DNA of 25,901 bases from IMG/VR virus record IMGVR_UViG_3300013005_000146, positions 1 to 25,901 of that record. One strand, 5' to 3'. Of the stretch, positions 1,885-10,177 are shown in pieces. The notes under the pieces were generated by a model that searched no databases, had not been told where the DNA came from, and saw nothing but the letters and a program-made list of their open reading frames with translations. Each line of letters starts with the position of its first letter. Position 1 is the first letter of the stretch. The stretch is from a virus. The position numbers were made by a program, and so were the translations under genes.

Positions 1885-3945
1885 TTACCTGACAACAGGC
1901 TGAACAATCTGCCCTTGCAGAATTTGCTGAACAGCCTCGGTATTTGTCAATGCCATGTTTTGTGCGTTCTCTTGGACTTTGCCCAAAGTTTCCAGCGTCT
2001 GAGCACGTTTAAGCTCTGCCGCCGCCACAGTTTCCACAGTATCCGCTCTGGCTTTGGCTGCTTTGGCGATTGCTTCTTCAGCCGCCGCTTGCAAGAATAC
2101 AGCGTTCGGGTCTTGGGTCTGCCCTTGCATCTCGGCCATCATTTCCTGTGCTTCTTGTTCGGTTGCCTGAACAACACCCATACGCAGTAACTTCTTGCGG
2201 AAATAAGCATTTGCATCTCCAACGCCCTCGCCTTCCATGTTCATCATGGCCATTGCAGTCAGAACTTGCTGGGTCTCAGGGTCTTGGGTGATTTGCAGCA
2301 TCCCAGTCAACGCCCTGACCGTGGCCGCACGTTTGCTACTGGATGATGGTCCAACCTCGGCAACCACATCAAATGTGGCACTGGAAAGGTCATTTGCCAT
2401 CACCACAGCACCAGTCTCGGTGTCAATCGTGGGTTGCATCAGCTCGACCATGCCAGCCTCACCAGTAGGCGCGATGGTTTTCATCTTGCGCTTGTCCTCG
2501 GTGTAGATTTCCTTTGCCATGCCAAGCCATATCTCGCCGCATCGCTTCATACCCTTGGCAAAGTTGCTCATGTAAATGAACGTCTGCATATCTACACGGG
2601 TTTGAATCATCTCTACGGCTTTGCCTGATACGCCTGAAACCATCTTGTCAGCCCCTTGTGGGTTGCCCAAAATGTCCTGCATATCCTGCTCGGTAATCTG
2701 CAACAGTGCCGCCATTGCAGGCGGGATTGCTGCCGACTTGGTGTAAGCCAATGGCCCAGTCACCTGCGTATTACCATCAGGCCCAGTAATCGGATTGACC
2801 AGCAGATAAGGGTAATCCCGCAGATTGTCTTCAGCCCACATCACTTGATGCCCTGCTACTTGCTCAGGGGTCATGATGGGCTTTTCGATACTCGACAGTG
2901 CGCTGATCTCGCCCAGCTTGGACAGTTGCATATTCTTGAGGCGTTGAGCATCTTTAGCCAGGCGCACAGCACCCATGCAACGCTCGATGTTGTCCACAAA
3001 CCACCGCTTGCCGTAGACCACCACGATAGGGATGTTTCGGCCTGCAATGTAGCCTGCATCTTCCAGCACTTTGCCGCCCGACATGATGTATTTGCGAACC
3101 CGCATCCGCTTGATACGCTTTTGGCGCACCTCACGAGTGCCGACTGCCATCAGGGTTTCCTCTAGCGTCTCATCGTTCGCAAAGTCCGTTTGGGTGTAGC
3201 GTTCCTCAGTTCCATCAATGGCTTCAAATATGCGGATAACCTCGGTCTTTTCCTCGACCTTGTAATACTCAGCCACAAACACAATATCAGGAGTTGCCCA
3301 GTCAAACTCGTACTGGTGAATGATCTTCGGCCAGTCCGTTGGGTCATCGTTGTAGGTTTCTTTGTAGCTTTCACGGGTCATGCTGGTGACCACAAAGGCA
3401 TACTTGGCATCCGACTTATCTTGCCGCTTGGCATTCAAGTCAAAGAACACGCTGGAGTCAGCATCAAAGATTGGCTCAAATCTGATGCGCTGACGTTCGT
3501 TCTCTGGGTCTTCCTCGTCCTCGTAGACAGTACGCAAACGCCATGCGCCAATACCACCGCCCACAGCTTCCTCAAAGGCGTTGTCGTAAGCCTCATCAGC
3601 CACCGATGCTTGTTCATCAGCACGATACAGACCATCGCAGACTTCTGCCAGCTTGTCGTTCTCAGTCCCGTCTTTGCTTACATAATCAACGGTGATGCGG
3701 TTATTGCGGTATTCGTTAACGATGCGAATAACCGCCAACATGATTTTGTTGACCTCAAACTTGGGCTTGTTTTCGTACTGATCCCATAATGGGCCTTCCC
3801 ACTGTGCGCCGCAGAGAGAATAAAACCGTCTGTCTTGCAGGCATTGCAGGCGTTCATCCCGCAGCGCAGTTTGTATGTCGTTGAACTGCCGCAGTGCTTC
3901 AGCGTGCAGATTGGCAAGGCGTTGGTCATTGGGTATTCGTGCCAT
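1885..3945 (-). CDS. Portal protein, P22-like
   Basis: The product is 686 residues, close to P22 gp1 (725). It would form the dodecameric ring at one capsid vertex through which DNA is packaged and ejected. The N-terminal third carries the P22-portal style segment with FEVNKIM, RNNRITVDY and an acidic turn before ADEAYDNAFEEAV. The middle has GGKVLEDAGYI and the IPIVVVYGKRW strand. The C-terminal part is Ala/Gln/Glu-rich helical, matching a crown or barrel helix. The ATG at 3945 has AAGGA six bases upstream. It lies 23 bases after the large terminase stop, as expected for a packaging-head operon. Confidence 0.92.
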   Translation of the reverse strand: MARIPNDQRLANLHAEALRQFNDIQTALRDERLQCLQDRRFYSLCGAQWEGPLWDQYENKPKFEVNKIMLAVIRIVNEYRNNRITVDYVSKDGTENDKLAEVCDGLYRADEQASVADEAYDNAFEEAVGGGIGAWRLRTVYEDEEDPENERQRIRFEPIFDADSSVFFDLNAKRQDKSDAKYAFVVTSMTRESYKETYNDDPTDWPKIIHQYEFDWATPDIVFVAEYYKVEEKTEVIRIFEAIDGTEERYTQTDFANDETLEETLMAVGTREVRQKRIKRMRVRKYIMSGGKVLEDAGYIAGRNIPIVVVYGKRWFVDNIERCMGAVRLAKDAQRLKNMQLSKLGEISALSSIEKPIMTPEQVAGHQVMWAEDNLRDYPYLLVNPITGPDGNTQVTGPLAYTKSAAIPPAMAALLQITEQDMQDILGNPQGADKMVSGVSGKAVEMIQTRVDMQTFIYMSNFAKGMKRCGEIWLGMAKEIYTEDKRKMKTIAPTGEAGMVELMQPTIDTETGAVVMANDLSSATFDVVAEVGPSSSSKRAATVRALTGMLQITQDPETQQVLTAMAMMNMEGEGVGDANAYFRKKLLRMGVVQATEQEAQEMMAEMQGQTQDPNAVFLQAAAEEAIAKAAKARADTVETVAAAELKRAQTLETLGKVQENAQNMALTNTEAVQQILQGQIVQPVVR

Positions 3946-3968: not shown

Positions 3969-5195
3969 CTACCAGCGTTTGACATTGGGCAATGGCGTAA
4001 ATGTAGCTGATTTTGTGACCGCTGACCGCCTGATGCCCTCACACGCATATCGCAAAGCATCAATAACATGGTTCTTTTTATCCTCAAGCTGGGGCAGGAT
4101 TCGCCCCGTCAATGGGTCTGATTTGTAACTGTACAGGCTCAATTCGTCAATGGTGTGAATACAGCGAGGGTGAACCACGATGTCGTAATTCTTCAAGAAT
4201 TCGATGCCTTCCTCAACAGACTTTGGCCCTTTGACAGCTGTCATGATCTTGGGAAAGCCGTTGCGCTTCATGTGGCTGATGGTCTCTGGTCGGGCTGAGT
4301 CGGCAACGATCGGCCACTTCTCGGCCTCTGGCACTTGCATGAACAGTTCAGGCGTATTGACAATCTCACAGCCCACCATATACGCCTCATAGTCAATGTA
4401 AAGGATTCGCCCGATTATGTGGCATCGCACCAAAACTGTCGGGTCAACCGAGAATCCCCAGTCCGCACCCAGTCGGTGAATGGCCTCTGCTGGCGCTTCG
4501 AAATCGTCAATCTTCCAGTTTCTGAATACCCTGCTGTTACTGTTTCGCAGGTATTGACCCATCCAAACGTGCTGATATTTGTCAGGGTCACGCCGTTTGT
4601 CGTACTCCATCTCTTCCCGTAGGACATCAGGAAACCACGGGTTTTCCCCAAAGTTCACCTTGATGACTGTTGCGCTGGCTGGAGGTTCTGGCCCACGCAG
4701 TAGAAAATCTACTGGGTCGGATTCTTGGCGAGGATTCCATGTAAACCACAGTTCGCTGTTGGGCTTGCGGATTGTTGGCCTAAGTAGGTCAAGGCTGGTC
4801 TGGCTTAATGACTGGGCTTCTTCTACCCAAGCGCAGTCGTACCCTTCCAGCGACTTAATCGAGTCGGCGGTGTGGTTCTGCATCCCTTGGAAAATAATCG
4901 CCCCATCGCCCTTTTTGGACTTGATGACCGAATCTTGGACTTCAAAGTACGCCCCTGCATTCATGGCCTCAATCTTGGTCTCTAGCAGGCGTTTGACCGA
5001 TTGGTTAAGGGACTTCTGTATTTCACGGACGCAAACGCTACGATGCTTTTGGTTCATTATGTGGGCTTCGATCATCATCTCAGCAAATAGATGTGACTTT
5101 CCTGAACCTCGACCACCCCATGCGCCTTTGTAACGAGACGGTTGCAACAATGGCAAAGCCCATTCAGGTGTGGCAATGCTTAAGGTTTTACCCAT
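3969..5195 (-). CDS. Terminase large subunit (PBSX-like family)
   Basis: This is the DNA-packaging motor and headful nuclease, acting at the portal vertex. The N-terminal ATPase shows a Walker A GGRGSGKS at residues 27-34 and a Walker B ending in CAWVEEAQ near residues 121-128. A coupling motif LWFTWNP follows around residue 149. The C-terminal RNase H-like nuclease shows three spaced acidic residues in context: GADWGFS (D245), VADSARPE (D299) and HVIDALRY (D379). At 408 residues it is typical for the PBSX-like group. The start overlaps the small subunit stop by 8 bases and has only a weak ribosome site, suggesting translational coupling. Confidence 0.95.
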   Translation of the reverse strand: MGKTLSIATPEWALPLLQPSRYKGAWGGRGSGKSHLFAEMMIEAHIMNQKHRSVCVREIQKSLNQSVKRLLETKIEAMNAGAYFEVQDSVIKSKKGDGAIIFQGMQNHTADSIKSLEGYDCAWVEEAQSLSQTSLDLLRPTIRKPNSELWFTWNPRQESDPVDFLLRGPEPPASATVIKVNFGENPWFPDVLREEMEYDKRRDPDKYQHVWMGQYLRNSNSRVFRNWKIDDFEAPAEAIHRLGADWGFSVDPTVLVRCHIIGRILYIDYEAYMVGCEIVNTPELFMQVPEAEKWPIVADSARPETISHMKRNGFPKIMTAVKGPKSVEEGIEFLKNYDIVVHPRCIHTIDELSLYSYKSDPLTGRILPQLEDKKNHVIDALRYACEGIRRSAVTKSATFTPLPNVKRW

Positions 5196-5622
5196 GCTTT
5201 ACAACAACACGCTCAATCTTGGCAAATTCAAGTGGCTGACCATCCGCGCCAGTCAGTTCATGGCGTTGGGTTTCTCTCCAACCCATTTGTGATTTTGACC
5301 ACCAAATTTGTGCAGTCGTATCACCAGCCATGGCTTTTTGGAAAATACCTTTGCCAACTTGTGCATTTGCTTTGGCTTTGCCGTTAATTAGTTCGGATTT
5401 AAAGTGCTTTCTCAGTGTGTCAATGTCAATGCCGTCACGGGTTAATGCGGCTATTTGGTCAAAAGGCACACCATAACCCGACATTGCTTCAACTTGTCTG
5501 CGTTCAGCATCAGTAGGTACAAAGGGTTTTCTGCCAGCACCTTCACGTGCCCCACCGTTCTGTTTTGGCTTATCTGCCTCTTTTTTAGGCAGTTGGGTGG
5601 AAATTTCAGTGGTTTTTTTCAT
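5188..5622 (-). CDS. Terminase small subunit
   Basis: The product is 144 residues with a Lys/Gly-rich N-terminus (NGGAREGAGRKP) followed by helices. A helix-turn-helix-like segment runs from about residue 45 to 75 (MSGYGVPFDQIAALTRDGI then LRKHFKSEL), and the KAMAGDTTAQIWW segment is typical of small terminases. It would recognise the packaging site and load the large subunit. The gene overlaps the terminase large subunit by 8 bases and precedes it in the same operon. The ATG has a very strong GGAGG site, part of which can fold into a short hairpin (listed separately). Confidence 0.88.
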   Translation of the reverse strand: MKKTTEISTQLPKKEADKPKQNGGAREGAGRKPFVPTDAERRQVEAMSGYGVPFDQIAALTRDGIDIDTLRKHFKSELINGKAKANAQVGKGIFQKAMAGDTTAQIWWSKSQMGWRETQRHELTGADGQPLEFAKIERVVVKHG

Positions 5623-5683: not shown

Positions 5684-6589
5684 TTATTTCACAGTGCTTG
5701 TAATGCGTGATAGAACTCTTGGTTTACGATGTGATTCGTCAAGTATTTTTGGCACTGCATATTTCCACATGACCTGATGATGTATCCGCCTATCAGTAGT
5801 ACCAACTTCTGATATTTTTACGCATGATGGTGCATACATGACCGTATAGAATGATTTTGTATATGTGCCAAGGTCAAGATAGATTTCAGTCAATCCACCA
5901 GAATTTTGTTGTGTTACCACTTGCTGTAATCTCAACTGAGGTGAAGTCATAAACAATATGCCTCTGCGACCCCATTCAACATACATATTCACATCTTCAT
6001 TGATTCGTCCCATAAACTGCACAGGACGATCAACACGGAACAAAAACGAATTCATTACTTTGCGATAGATTTCATCTTTACGCATTCTGCTTAACAGTGT
6101 GCAACCTTCACCGCCTATGAAGTCACCGCCTTGTGCAAATGCGATGGAGTGAAATGGTGTTGTATCCATAAAATCCATCATTGCTTCAAGCAAATCATCC
6201 AATTTGCCGATTTTGTTGTTGGATGTTGTGTACTGCATTTCCGCATTAAGTGAATAATCAAAGCGTGTGTAATCGTCATCCAGTTGCCAAAAATGGGTCA
6301 AACCCATATCGCTTGCTATTTCGAAGTTCCAGTTTCGTGCAAATACAACACTATTGCGCTTTTTGAAGTTATCCCCGCTATCAGTAATGTCTATCGCATC
6401 CTGTTTCTTGAAAACGATGACAGTATCTTCTCCGTACAGATTTTTGTACTTGGCAATTTGCTTGTCTTCGTCATCGCACAGCAAATAAATTTTTCCTGTA
6501 TATCCTTGCTGTCGTAGAGTTTTGAACGTATAGACTGAATCAGCTCTGCCATGGGTCAAAATGAATACGGCAAAATTGCGATCGGTCAT
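5684..6589 (-). CDS. TET-associated-type glycosyltransferase (GT-A fold), candidate DNA-base glycosyltransferase
   Basis: The product is 301 residues. It starts with a GT-A-like first strand (FAVFILTHGRAD, residues 6-17), has a nucleotide-sugar metal motif WQLDDDY at 101-107 (DDD 104-106), and a later GRINEDVNMY segment (194-203) that fits the catalytic acidic position of GT-A enzymes. The overall pattern matches the phage family named TET-associated glycosyltransferases, which are predicted to add sugars to oxidised pyrimidines in phage DNA. Its ATG overlaps the ParB-like gene stop by 4 bases (ATGA), so the two are translated together. No TET/JBP dioxygenase or cytosine methyltransferase is visible in this window, so the acceptor base is unknown. 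Confidence 0.78.
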   Translation of the reverse strand: MTDRNFAVFILTHGRADSVYTFKTLRQQGYTGKIYLLCDDEDKQIAKYKNLYGEDTVIVFKKQDAIDITDSGDNFKKRNSVVFARNWNFEIASDMGLTHFWQLDDDYTRFDYSLNAEMQYTTSNNKIGKLDDLLEAMMDFMDTTPFHSIAFAQGGDFIGGEGCTLLSRMRKDEIYRKVMNSFLFRVDRPVQFMGRINEDVNMYVEWGRRGILFMTSPQLRLQQVVTQQNSGGLTEIYLDLGTYTKSFYTVMYAPSCVKISEVGTTDRRIHHQVMWKYAVPKILDESHRKPRVLSRITSTVK

Positions 6590-7356
6590 TGTTCAGTACC
6601 TTTTTCGCTGGTATAAATATTGCCAATGACTTGCGAAAGCTTTACATATCCACCAGCAATAGCTTTTTCAAAGTCCACAATTACCAAAGCACTGTCTTCC
6701 ATCAGTTGCTGTATGTCTGGCGGTGCATGAGCATAAAACTCAGCAATTTGCTCAAAATCAAAGCGGATATGTCTTGCCGCCGCCGCAAGCAAAAAGTCTT
6801 TTATCTCTGAGTCAATACTATCCTCTTGGTATATTTTTGCTGTAAGTTCTTCGTATTTGGTTTTATCGTAAAGCTCTAAAATTGGCGGGCAATCCCCAGT
6901 TGGTTCATAAACAGGGGCATCAATTTTTTTACTGTATTTGCTATCGTCCTCATCATCTTCAGGCGAAAGCAATTCTGCAATTTCATCAGCCGCAAAACCA
7001 GTTATATCAAGATCAAAACCCATGTCCCCAAGTTCAGCAAGTTCAAGTGCCAATATTTCATTGTCCCAATCAGCATTTAATGCCAATTTATTGTCAGCAA
7101 TGATGTATGCCTTACGCTGAGTCTCGGTCAAGTCTTTTAGTTCAATGGTTGGTACTTCGATATACCCTAGTTTCCGAGCCGCCATCAGCCGACCATGGCC
7201 TGCAATGATGCCGTTCTCTCCGTCAACCAATATTGGGTTTGTCCACCCGAATTCCTTAATGCTTGCGGCAATCTGCGCCACCTGTGAATCACTGTGGGTG
7301 CGACTATTATTGATGTAGGGTATCAATGTATCCACAGGTTTTTGCACAATTTTCAT
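6586..7356 (-). CDS. ParB N-terminal-domain protein with phage-specific C-terminal domain
   Basis: From this start the product is 256 residues. Residues 1-100 are a ParB/Srx-type domain: NNSRTHS, IAASIKEFGWTNPILVD, then the GHGRLMAARKLG nucleotide-binding box and ADNKLAL. After an acidic linker, a second domain (CPPILELYD, FLLAAAARHI, YAHAPPDIQ, DSALVIVDF) has no name I know but recurs in phage ParB-like proteins. Such domains bind DNA or CTP, or sit beside DNA-modifying enzymes. I chose the ATG at 7356 because it makes a 4-base ATGA overlap with the HNH gene and begins at the conserved MKIV. A longer start at 7425 has a good AGGAAAGG site and cannot be excluded. It is coupled to the glycosyltransferase downstream. 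Confidence 0.85.
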   Translation of the reverse strand: MKIVQKPVDTLIPYINNSRTHSDSQVAQIAASIKEFGWTNPILVDGENGIIAGHGRLMAARKLGYIEVPTIELKDLTETQRKAYIIADNKLALNADWDNEILALELAELGDMGFDLDITGFAADEIAELLSPEDDEDDSKYSKKIDAPVYEPTGDCPPILELYDKTKYEELTAKIYQEDSIDSEIKDFLLAAAARHIRFDFEQIAEFYAHAPPDIQQLMEDSALVIVDFEKAIAGGYVKLSQVIGNIYTSEKGTEQ

Positions 7357-7691
7357 GGTATCGGCACTCCCACTGGCCATTGGTCTTGCAGTGCTATTAC
7401 TGTCTTTTGATGCGCCTTTTGCCATAAGTCTTGCCTTTCCTGTTTGCTAAGTGTTTTCCCTTGGTCAATCTCGTAATGGCATTTCAGGCATAAAGCCGCC
7501 ACCAGATTGTCATCCGCTTTGATTCCTCTGCCCTTGCCGCCGCCCCAATTTGTGTGTGCGGCTTGGACCATGTGACCCGACCCGCAGGCTTGGCAGTCAA
7601 GGCTTGCCACCATCTTCAGCAGTTTTTTGCTTCTGACGTATTGGTGTTTTTCTATCAACGATTGTCTCCAGTGTTGTAAACCTGTGCTCAT
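7353..7691 (-). CDS. HNH-type putative nuclease
   Basis: The product is 112 residues from this ATG. A zinc-type HNH pattern is visible: CQACG (C33, C36), AAHTNW (H46), a KGRGIKADDN loop, then CLKCHYEID (C68, C71, H72). Small phage proteins of this pattern are often near RusA and recombination genes and may nick DNA or process junctions; activity is inferred. The conserved RSKKLL segment lies before the zinc site, so the start must be upstream of residue 20. Alternatives are a GTG at 7697 and a TTG at 7658 with GGAG seven bases before it. The 5' end overlaps the zinc-ribbon gene by up to about 95 bases; the TTG would shorten this. Confidence 0.72.
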   Translation of the reverse strand: MSTGLQHWRQSLIEKHQYVRSKKLLKMVASLDCQACGSGHMVQAAHTNWGGGKGRGIKADDNLVAALCLKCHYEIDQGKTLSKQERQDLWQKAHQKTVIALQDQWPVGVPIP

Positions 7692-7782
7692 TTGCACATT
7701 CCATGCGCCTGCGCCTTGTGTTACCTGTTGATGTTCGGGTCTCTTTTACGATTGTCCATGTCCCGCAAACTGGGCATTTCAC
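7597..7782 (-). CDS. Small NrdR-like zinc-ribbon protein
   Basis: The product is 61 residues starting at GTG 7782. The start MKCPVCG, the basic RRRRMEC and the RFTTLET motif match the N-terminal zinc ribbon of the NrdR repressor (MRCPFCG, RRRR, RFTTFE), but the ATP-cone domain is absent. Metal ligands appear to be C3, C6, C29 and H33, a CCCH variant of the usual four cysteines. It could bind DNA or act as a small transcription factor like phage Ogr-type zinc proteins. The GTG forms a 4-base GTGA overlap with the upstream gene and has AGGG eight bases before, so the longer upstream ATG (7830) is unlikely. Confidence 0.7.
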   Translation of the reverse strand: MKCPVCGTWTIVKETRTSTGNTRRRRMECANEHRFTTLETIVDRKTPIRQKQKTAEDGGKP

Positions 7783-9860: not shown

Positions 9861-9888
9861 TATATATCAATAACAGTTTGTGTTGCAA
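9861..9888 (-). promoter_or_regulatory. Candidate leftward promoter for the YdaU-to-terminase operon
   Basis: On the minus strand a TTGCAA element (9888-9883) is followed by a 16-base spacer and a TATATA element (9866-9861). It lies at the 3' end of the small secreted protein gene, about 95 bases before the YdaU start. It fits a sigma-70 type promoter, but the -35 is imperfect, so confidence is modest. The approximately 100 bases between 9766 and 9866 show no convincing gene. Confidence 0.35.
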
Positions 9889-10016
9889 TTATTTCCGTAG
9901 CAACAGGTGGTGCAGGTGACATATCTTCCATTGGCATAGTAGGTGTGCGTTGAGCAAGCCGCCCAGACCGTTGTGGTTGATGCTGCTATCCAAATTGCAA
10001 TCAGTGCTTTTTTCAT
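9867..10016 (-). CDS. Small secreted Cys-rich protein
   Basis: The product is 49 residues: a Lys-Lys start, a hydrophobic core (ALIAIWIAAS) and a likely signal peptidase I cut after VWA. The mature part has six cysteines, with the cluster CTTCCYGNNC and a Tyr/Asn-rich tail. It would be exported to the periplasm and possibly cross-linked by disulfides. The ATG at 10016 has an excellent GGAGGAAAC site and overlaps the Cro-like stop by 4 bases (ATGA), so the two are co-translated. The long version from 10064 lacks sense. I recall similar small exported Cys-rich proteins in other environmental phages but know no function; superinfection control or an envelope effect are guesses. Confidence 0.78.
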   Translation of the reverse strand: MKKALIAIWIAASTTTVWAACSTHTYYANGRYVTCTTCCYGNNCNTNCY

Positions 10017-10177
10017 GTTTCCTCCGTTAAAAACCATTGTGGGCGAATGGCCCTGAGTTGCCAAAGTCTGCCTTCAGGTATCTGCCGCCATTGATTCACA
10101 GCCGCCCTGGTGATACCCAAAATACGTGCTAGCTCACTCTGTGAGCCTGCCAATCTGATAATCTGTTCTTTTGTCAT
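10013..10177 (-). CDS. Cro-like (YdaS-type) transcriptional regulator
   Basis: The product is 54 residues. The region SQSELARILGITRAAVNQW is a Cro/C1-type helix-turn-helix, followed by IPEGRLWQLRAI, a motif common after the helix-turn-helix in YdaS/Cro-like phage regulators, and a PQWF end. It would bind operators between itself and the divergent early promoter. No ribosome site precedes the ATG, while a TACAAT -10 lies only six bases upstream, so the transcript may be leaderless like lambda cI from PRM. It is joined to the secreted Cys-rich gene by ATGA. No CI-type repressor is present, so this looks like a lytic timing switch. Confidence 0.85.
   Translation of the reverse strand: MTKEQIIRLAGSQSELARILGITRAAVNQWRQIPEGRLWQLRAIRPQWFLTEET

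Follow-up and report, generated by a model that had tools for sequence, protein, structure and literature searches.

The TAGT glycosyltransferase encoded in the window, a 25.9-kb IMG/VR virus record (25,901 nucleotides) that is a genome fragment, belongs to a linked two-part unit whose constant partner is a second domain of about 115 residues. In the window this domain is joined to a ParB-fold N-domain (ParB-N), an optional module that can be exchanged and that also occurs in fusions with DNA methyltransferases. Judging from sequence and genomic context, we consider it fairly likely that the pair is a self-contained phage DNA-glycosylation cassette, which probably adds sugar to viral DNA without the known preparatory enzymes. 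The genes are arranged on the minus strand in the order HNH-like endonuclease, ParB-type protein, TAGT, terminase small subunit (TerS), terminase large subunit (TerL) and P22-like portal:

7353..7697, minus strand: HNH endonuclease-like gene, landmark upstream in the slot (phrog_131, 8.6e-25)
6943..7356, minus strand: ParB-CTPase-fold N-domain (fold matches to KorB, Noc and ParB)
6586..6942, minus strand: C-terminal 'TAGT-partner' domain of the ParB protein, helical, about residues 162-279 (alignment)
5684..6589, minus strand: TAGT glycosyltransferase, 301 aa, GT-A fold, catalytic subunit (PF20691, 3.7e-35; phrog_842, 1.7e-71)
5188..5622, minus strand: terminase small subunit, directly downstream of TAGT, a landmark of the slot and no part of the enzyme (phrog_309, 6.4e-14)
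3969..5195, minus strand: terminase large subunit, landmark of the slot (PF04466, 7.4e-31; PF17288, 4.2e-14)
1885..3945, minus strand: P22-like portal, directly after the terminase genes (profile matches)

The original prediction described two coupled genes immediately upstream of the terminase genes, and this arrangement was found: both minus-strand ORFs are present, the ParB stop and the TAGT start share an ATGA overlap (6589-6586), and TerS and TerL follow directly downstream. Read from its first ATG, the ParB-protein ORF spans 6586-7425 (279 aa); from the ATG chosen in the original prediction it spans 6586-7356 (256 aa). We prefer the 7356 start because the gene then also overlaps the HNH gene upstream of it by ATGA and the protein fits the homologues better. 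The pair is real and not a chance arrangement, since it recurs in the sufficiently long loci tested and the TAGT dN/dS is 0.03-0.07; TAGT is under strong purifying selection. The G+C content is 45.1% in ParB-N, 39.5% in the partner domain, 39.7% in TAGT and 50.6% in TerL, which places the composition break in the window at the joint between ParB-N and the partner domain. Elsewhere in the window, a small Cys-rich ORF (9867-10064, minus strand) has a signal-peptide-like start and six Cys among its last 30 residues.

The assignment of the 301-residue protein as a GT-A glycosyltransferase with a DDD motif is borne out by profile and structure searches. It matches PF20691 with 122.2 bits (cut-off 27.5, E 3.7e-35), and its AF2 model (pLDDT 90.7, pTM 0.87) aligns with the GT-A fold of GalNAc-T2 (6nqt; Z 14.5, rmsd 4.1, 229 aligned residues). 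The DDD motif corresponds to D104-D105-D106, the metal/donor motif; among 97 sequences D105 and D106 are invariant and D104 is conserved in at least 90%. A second motif is formed by N197-E-D199. A sequence search of the PDB with TAGT gave no match, and the nearest solved folds include the protein glycosyltransferases GalNAc-T and SunS/ThuS, a likeness that tells nothing of the acceptor. The T4-like TAGT was recovered by structure search with TM 0.62/0.66 and about 11% identity, so carrying over its substrate is weak. In NCBI, one E. coli homologue of TAGT bears the name 'GREB1-related protein'. Several loci (L091, L096, L105, L114, L118 and L130, the last with up to three) contain tandem divergent TAGT copies beside the partner, possibly for sequential sugar addition.

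That TAGT enzymes form a family linked to DNA modification is already known. TET/JBP-associated glycosyltransferases of the base J pathway, reportedly described by Iyer et al. in 2013, are said to pair with a dioxygenase. These systems use the same glycosyltransferase family as the window, but the constant partner of window-type TAGTs is a helical domain, with or without ParB, instead of a dioxygenase. In phages T2/T6, a PF20691 family member adds glucose to DNA (PMC13216743, PMC13390438). This beta-glucosyl-HMC-alpha-glucosyltransferase combines PF20691 and a GT-A fold, as does the TAGT in the window, and acts after alpha-GT on hydroxymethylcytosine made by a hydroxymethylase; unlike for the window cassette, neither a partner domain nor a terminase slot is described for the T2/T6 system.

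For the ParB-type protein, which had been predicted to combine a ParB domain with a second domain, structure search confirms a ParB-CTPase fold. Its N-domain aligns with KorB (8qa9; Z 14.2, rmsd 2.7, 124 aligned residues) and Noc (7ng0; Z 13.7, rmsd 1.4, 90 aligned residues). In profile searches, ParB-N remains just under the Pfam cut-off (24.8 vs 26.3 bits), and the ParB protein matches the partition protein family TIGR00180 with 27.7 bits, under the cut-off of 58.45. The model of the protein shows an N-domain like those of ParB, Noc and KorB, a low-confidence linker and a helical second domain. R79 within a GHGR stretch sits where the essential P-motif arginine defined in a survey of phage ParB-CTPases would be expected (PMC12704722). 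The same survey found the ParB fold joined to accessory domains, often predicted DNA methyltransferases, and its main text contains no mention of glycosyltransferases (PMC12704722).

Comparison of 131 TAGT loci gathered from IMG/VR, GTDB genomes and reference phages revealed which part of this protein accompanies the glycosyltransferase. Every TAGT locus with 800 bp or more of upstream sequence also had the ParB/partner protein, in most cases with a short overlap of a few bases between the genes; in one exception, L115, the ParB part alone was recognisable. The few non-adjacent pairs are explained by an inserted second TAGT copy or methyltransferase, or by a broken or re-read start. At some loci the partner is a short protein of only about 135-150 residues, made up of nothing but the second domain. 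Counting the best-scoring loci, which makes the pairing counts valid for this clade and not for all TAGTs, TAGT follows directly downstream at each of the 78 loci with room that a partner-domain query blind to TAGT recovered, all 28 records of the phage collection that carry the partner domain also carry TAGT, and the partner across about 205 loci is fused to ParB in 167, stands alone in 28 and is cut by the contig end in 10. No adjacent ParB gene was found at the 28 stand-alone loci, which rules out ParB as a required partner of TAGT. The predicted coupling of a ParB-type protein to TAGT therefore stands, but the constant element is the second domain and not ParB. Natural fusions between the partner domain and TAGT were not seen in the roughly 205 loci, and the annotation of Vibrio phage 1.124.O, which has a divergent TAGT, shows no recognised partner.

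As judged from pairwise identities, TAGT distances appear to follow the partner domain more than ParB-N or TerL: with kinship ignored, the correlations are 0.59 for TAGT and partner, 0.39 for TAGT and ParB-N, 0.375 for TAGT and TerL, and 0.58 for ParB-N and TerL. Invariant residues of the partner are Y164, Y173, Y231, R218, E243 and D251. Searches of Pfam and NCBIfam with the partner domain gave only matches under the cut-offs, such as Phage_Gene47 at 0.006, and in fold searches with the ParB protein all matches were taken up by the ParB domain. Eight of 11 partner proteins weakly resemble PF23887 (mycobacteriophage L5 gene 47), also below the cut-off; in the A3 alignment, the PF23887-like stretch covers about residues 65-97 of the partner domain encoded by L006:5459-5878.

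DNA modification had been proposed as the role of the pair, and it is the most likely one, as the same slot hosts fusions of ParB to DNA methyltransferases. Sequence comparison indicates that the ParB domain is exchanged with DNA METHYLTRANSFERASES in the terminase slot. MW202867, the reference phage with the TerL closest to that of the window (TerL 79% and TerS 70% identical), carries in the same slot a single gene in which ParB-N (63% over 135 residues) is fused to N6_N4_Mtase. From this slot we conclude that the partner domain plus TAGT and the methyltransferase domain have replaced one another, in either direction. The composition break at the joint and the identity correlations agree with such a replacement. 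Psychrobacter phage pOW20-A, from the phage collection, encodes a 'DNA methylase' that is likewise a ParB-N6_N4_Mtase fusion; its N-terminal part is 72% identical to ParB-N of the window, and its gene lies directly upstream of a small gene and TerL. In both fusions the slot is the one directly upstream of TerS-TerL, and a methylation domain stands in place of the partner domain and glycosyltransferase. Xanthomonas phage PBR31, the next relative, is annotated with neither the TAGT pair nor the methyltransferase fusion. A candidate for another modification fusion in the slot is an 812-aa protein of Erythrobacter phage ZS04 (L219:2326-4764), which has a ParB-N-like start, an N6_N4 methyltransferase match and a domain of pyridoxal-phosphate enzymes (PALP) and lies upstream of terminase. 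Among the annotated genes in variable islands of cryoconite phages, methyltransferases are the most frequent, and one such phage with a ParB gene has a variable region between its integrase and TerL genes (PMC7468147).

In a survey of the pair beside terminases, 113 of the 150 loci with room had TerL no more than 3 kb downstream, at a median distance of 489 bp. The suggestion that modification marks the DNA for packaging did not survive as a main role: the neighbour of the pair in Vibrio phage pv27 is a helicase and not terminase, and Lactobacillus phage Ld25A, deposited as complete, retains its terminase genes after losing most of the pair. The annotated ParB nuclease of Ld25A (L134:90-515) includes a segment similar to TAGT residues 245-289, a structure that an internal deletion fusing ParB-N to the TAGT C-terminus would produce.

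The pair is carried by viruses of very different hosts. It adjoins terminase in Lactobacillus phages c5 and jlb1, Nocardia phage NTR1, enterobacterial lambdoid phages, a gut phage and a Porphyromonas phage; in HHTV-2, an archaeal virus (Haloarcula), about 3 kb lies between the pair and the downstream TerL. Vibrio phages are also among the carriers (pv27). A literature search on DNA modification in NTR1, HHTV-2 and L. delbrueckii phages found no direct data.

The original prediction allowed for a modification partner elsewhere in the genome. For hydroxymethylase and C5-methyltransferase this found no support in the carrier relatives in which we searched for precursor genes, the complete ones being 31-65 kb: the hydroxymethylase/thymidylate synthase family PF00303 was absent from 17 of 18 records and the C5-methyltransferase family PF00145 from all 18, with working positive controls in both cases. 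The sole PF00303 match, in pv27, is annotated as thymidylate synthase and lies beside a dihydrofolate reductase gene. In the complete 31.8-kb phage c5, no oxygenase or methyltransferase appeared among the 25 of 27 Pfam families displayed for 42 further proteins of this phage. TET/JBP (PF12851) gave no match in 18 phage records or 31 host genomes, in scans that had no usable positive control; cyanophage PSS2, chosen as a control, gave no PF12851 match itself. By these searches, none of the known routes to a hydroxylated base was found.

One possible, still tentative form of the cassette is that TAGT and the helical domain glycosylate an unmodified base or another native DNA group directly, that the sugar varies through adjacent genes, and that a ParB-fold NTPase, interchangeable with that of DNA methyltransferases, loads this enzyme on DNA. 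The normal bases of DNA lack a free hydroxyl group; to glycosylate them directly would take either an unusual acceptor or a hydroxylating step that has gone unseen. Such a step is the core of a classical pathway with a hidden beginning, in which TAGT would act on 5-hydroxymethyl-pyrimidines supplied by a divergent TET/JBP enzyme, a hydroxymethylase or a host enzyme. The T2/T6 chemistry, which targets (glucosyl-)hydroxymethylcytosine (PMC13216743), and the lack of a control for PF12851 speak for this pathway; the PF00303 and PF00145 results, the annotation of the pv27 match and the c5 inventory weigh against it and make it rather unlikely.

Dedicated enzyme-acceptor pairs suggest another reading, in which the sugar is placed on protein, the acceptor being the helical partner domain itself or a virion or host protein. 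A small protein that pairs one-to-one with a glycosyltransferase, the GalNAc-transferases and SunS/ThuS among the nearest folds, and the invariant tyrosines Y164, Y173 and Y231 of the partner are consistent with it. However, the invariant residues R218, E243 and D251 show that conservation is not confined to tyrosine, and at most loci the partner is joined to a ParB domain of the kind that in other phages carries DNA methyltransferases in this slot, so that we regard protein glycosylation as improbable. Phage glycosyltransferases often alter the host O-antigen, and some relatives have sugar-nucleotide genes, but a surface-sugar (seroconversion-like) enzyme placed by chance beside the ParB partition gene of a plasmid-like prophage is very hard to reconcile with the strict pairing with a ParB-family protein or its second domain, with carriers infecting Gram-positive, Gram-negative and archaeal hosts, with the DNA-acting members of PF20691 and with the adjoining packaging genes.

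The preferred reading, a cassette for glycosylation of viral DNA, raises the question of the sugar donor. Sugar-supply or tailoring genes adjoin the pair in only about 16% of loci (about one in six), and most of these added genes hold fixed positions next to it. Among 182 distinct TAGTs, the adjoining genes encode radical SAM proteins (8 loci), epimerases/dehydratases (6), cytidylyltransferase-like proteins (6), UDP-galactopyranose mutase (GLF; 5) and SAM methyltransferases (5). In one virus contig (L028:3444-5341), genes for a GDP-L-fucose synthase-like protein and a GDP-mannose 4,6-dehydratase (gmd; 509 bits, cut-off 415) lie just upstream of the ParB-TAGT pair. Other loci have GLF or a sulfotransferase near the pair, and in L186:6342-8087 an amidoligase (PF12224) and a class II glutamine amidotransferase-like protein follow directly downstream of TAGT. 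Together, these neighbours suggest that the sugar donor varies among phages. In the window no sugar gene adjoins the pair, which would therefore rely on host donors. The radical SAM proteins form a distinct phage family of about 320 aa with a CNNxCPYC motif, encoded directly between the TAGT and terminase genes, mostly in Clostridia-type loci (L008, L095, L103, L105, L114, L118 and L122, plus one further gene).

In the mechanism that we propose, the helical domain would be a subunit that TAGT requires, binding it and either activating it or presenting its substrate, and the ParB domain, where present, would load the complex on phage DNA through a nucleotide switch. TAGT would then move a sugar onto the DNA late in infection, drawing on the host UDP-glucose pool in the window phage and, in some relatives, on donors made locally, for instance GDP-fucose or UDP-galactofuranose. 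The sugar may hide the DNA from restriction or related nucleases. The proposal of DNA as the target draws on the slot swap and on family members with known DNA activity, and not on chemistry (PMC13216743, PMC13390438). A study published in 2026 found solitary TAGT homologues in 288 of 753 phage genomes without settling what they do (PMC13216743). Many of these solitary TAGTs, in bacterial and archaeal viruses, are given here a proposed partner of their own, a place in the genome and a likely role; earlier computational papers may already note the ParB neighbours of TAGT. Should DNA be the target, its glycosylation by a compact two-gene cassette would need no T4-type precursor pathway and would use exchangeable sugars.

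Most of the pair is present in 885 of 5426 complete E. coli genomes (about 16%). In strain ATCC 8739, TAGT is a full-length PF20691 member and ynaK is annotated as incomplete. In K-12 MG1655, no TAGT gene is annotated beside ynaK of the Rac prophage (L226:3378-3641, NC_000913.3 1425377-1425640), and its neighbour ydaY gave no match to TAGT. The 87-aa YnaK matches ParB-N over 85 residues at 53%, and this similarity suggests the cassette as the putative origin of the K-12 Rac protein.
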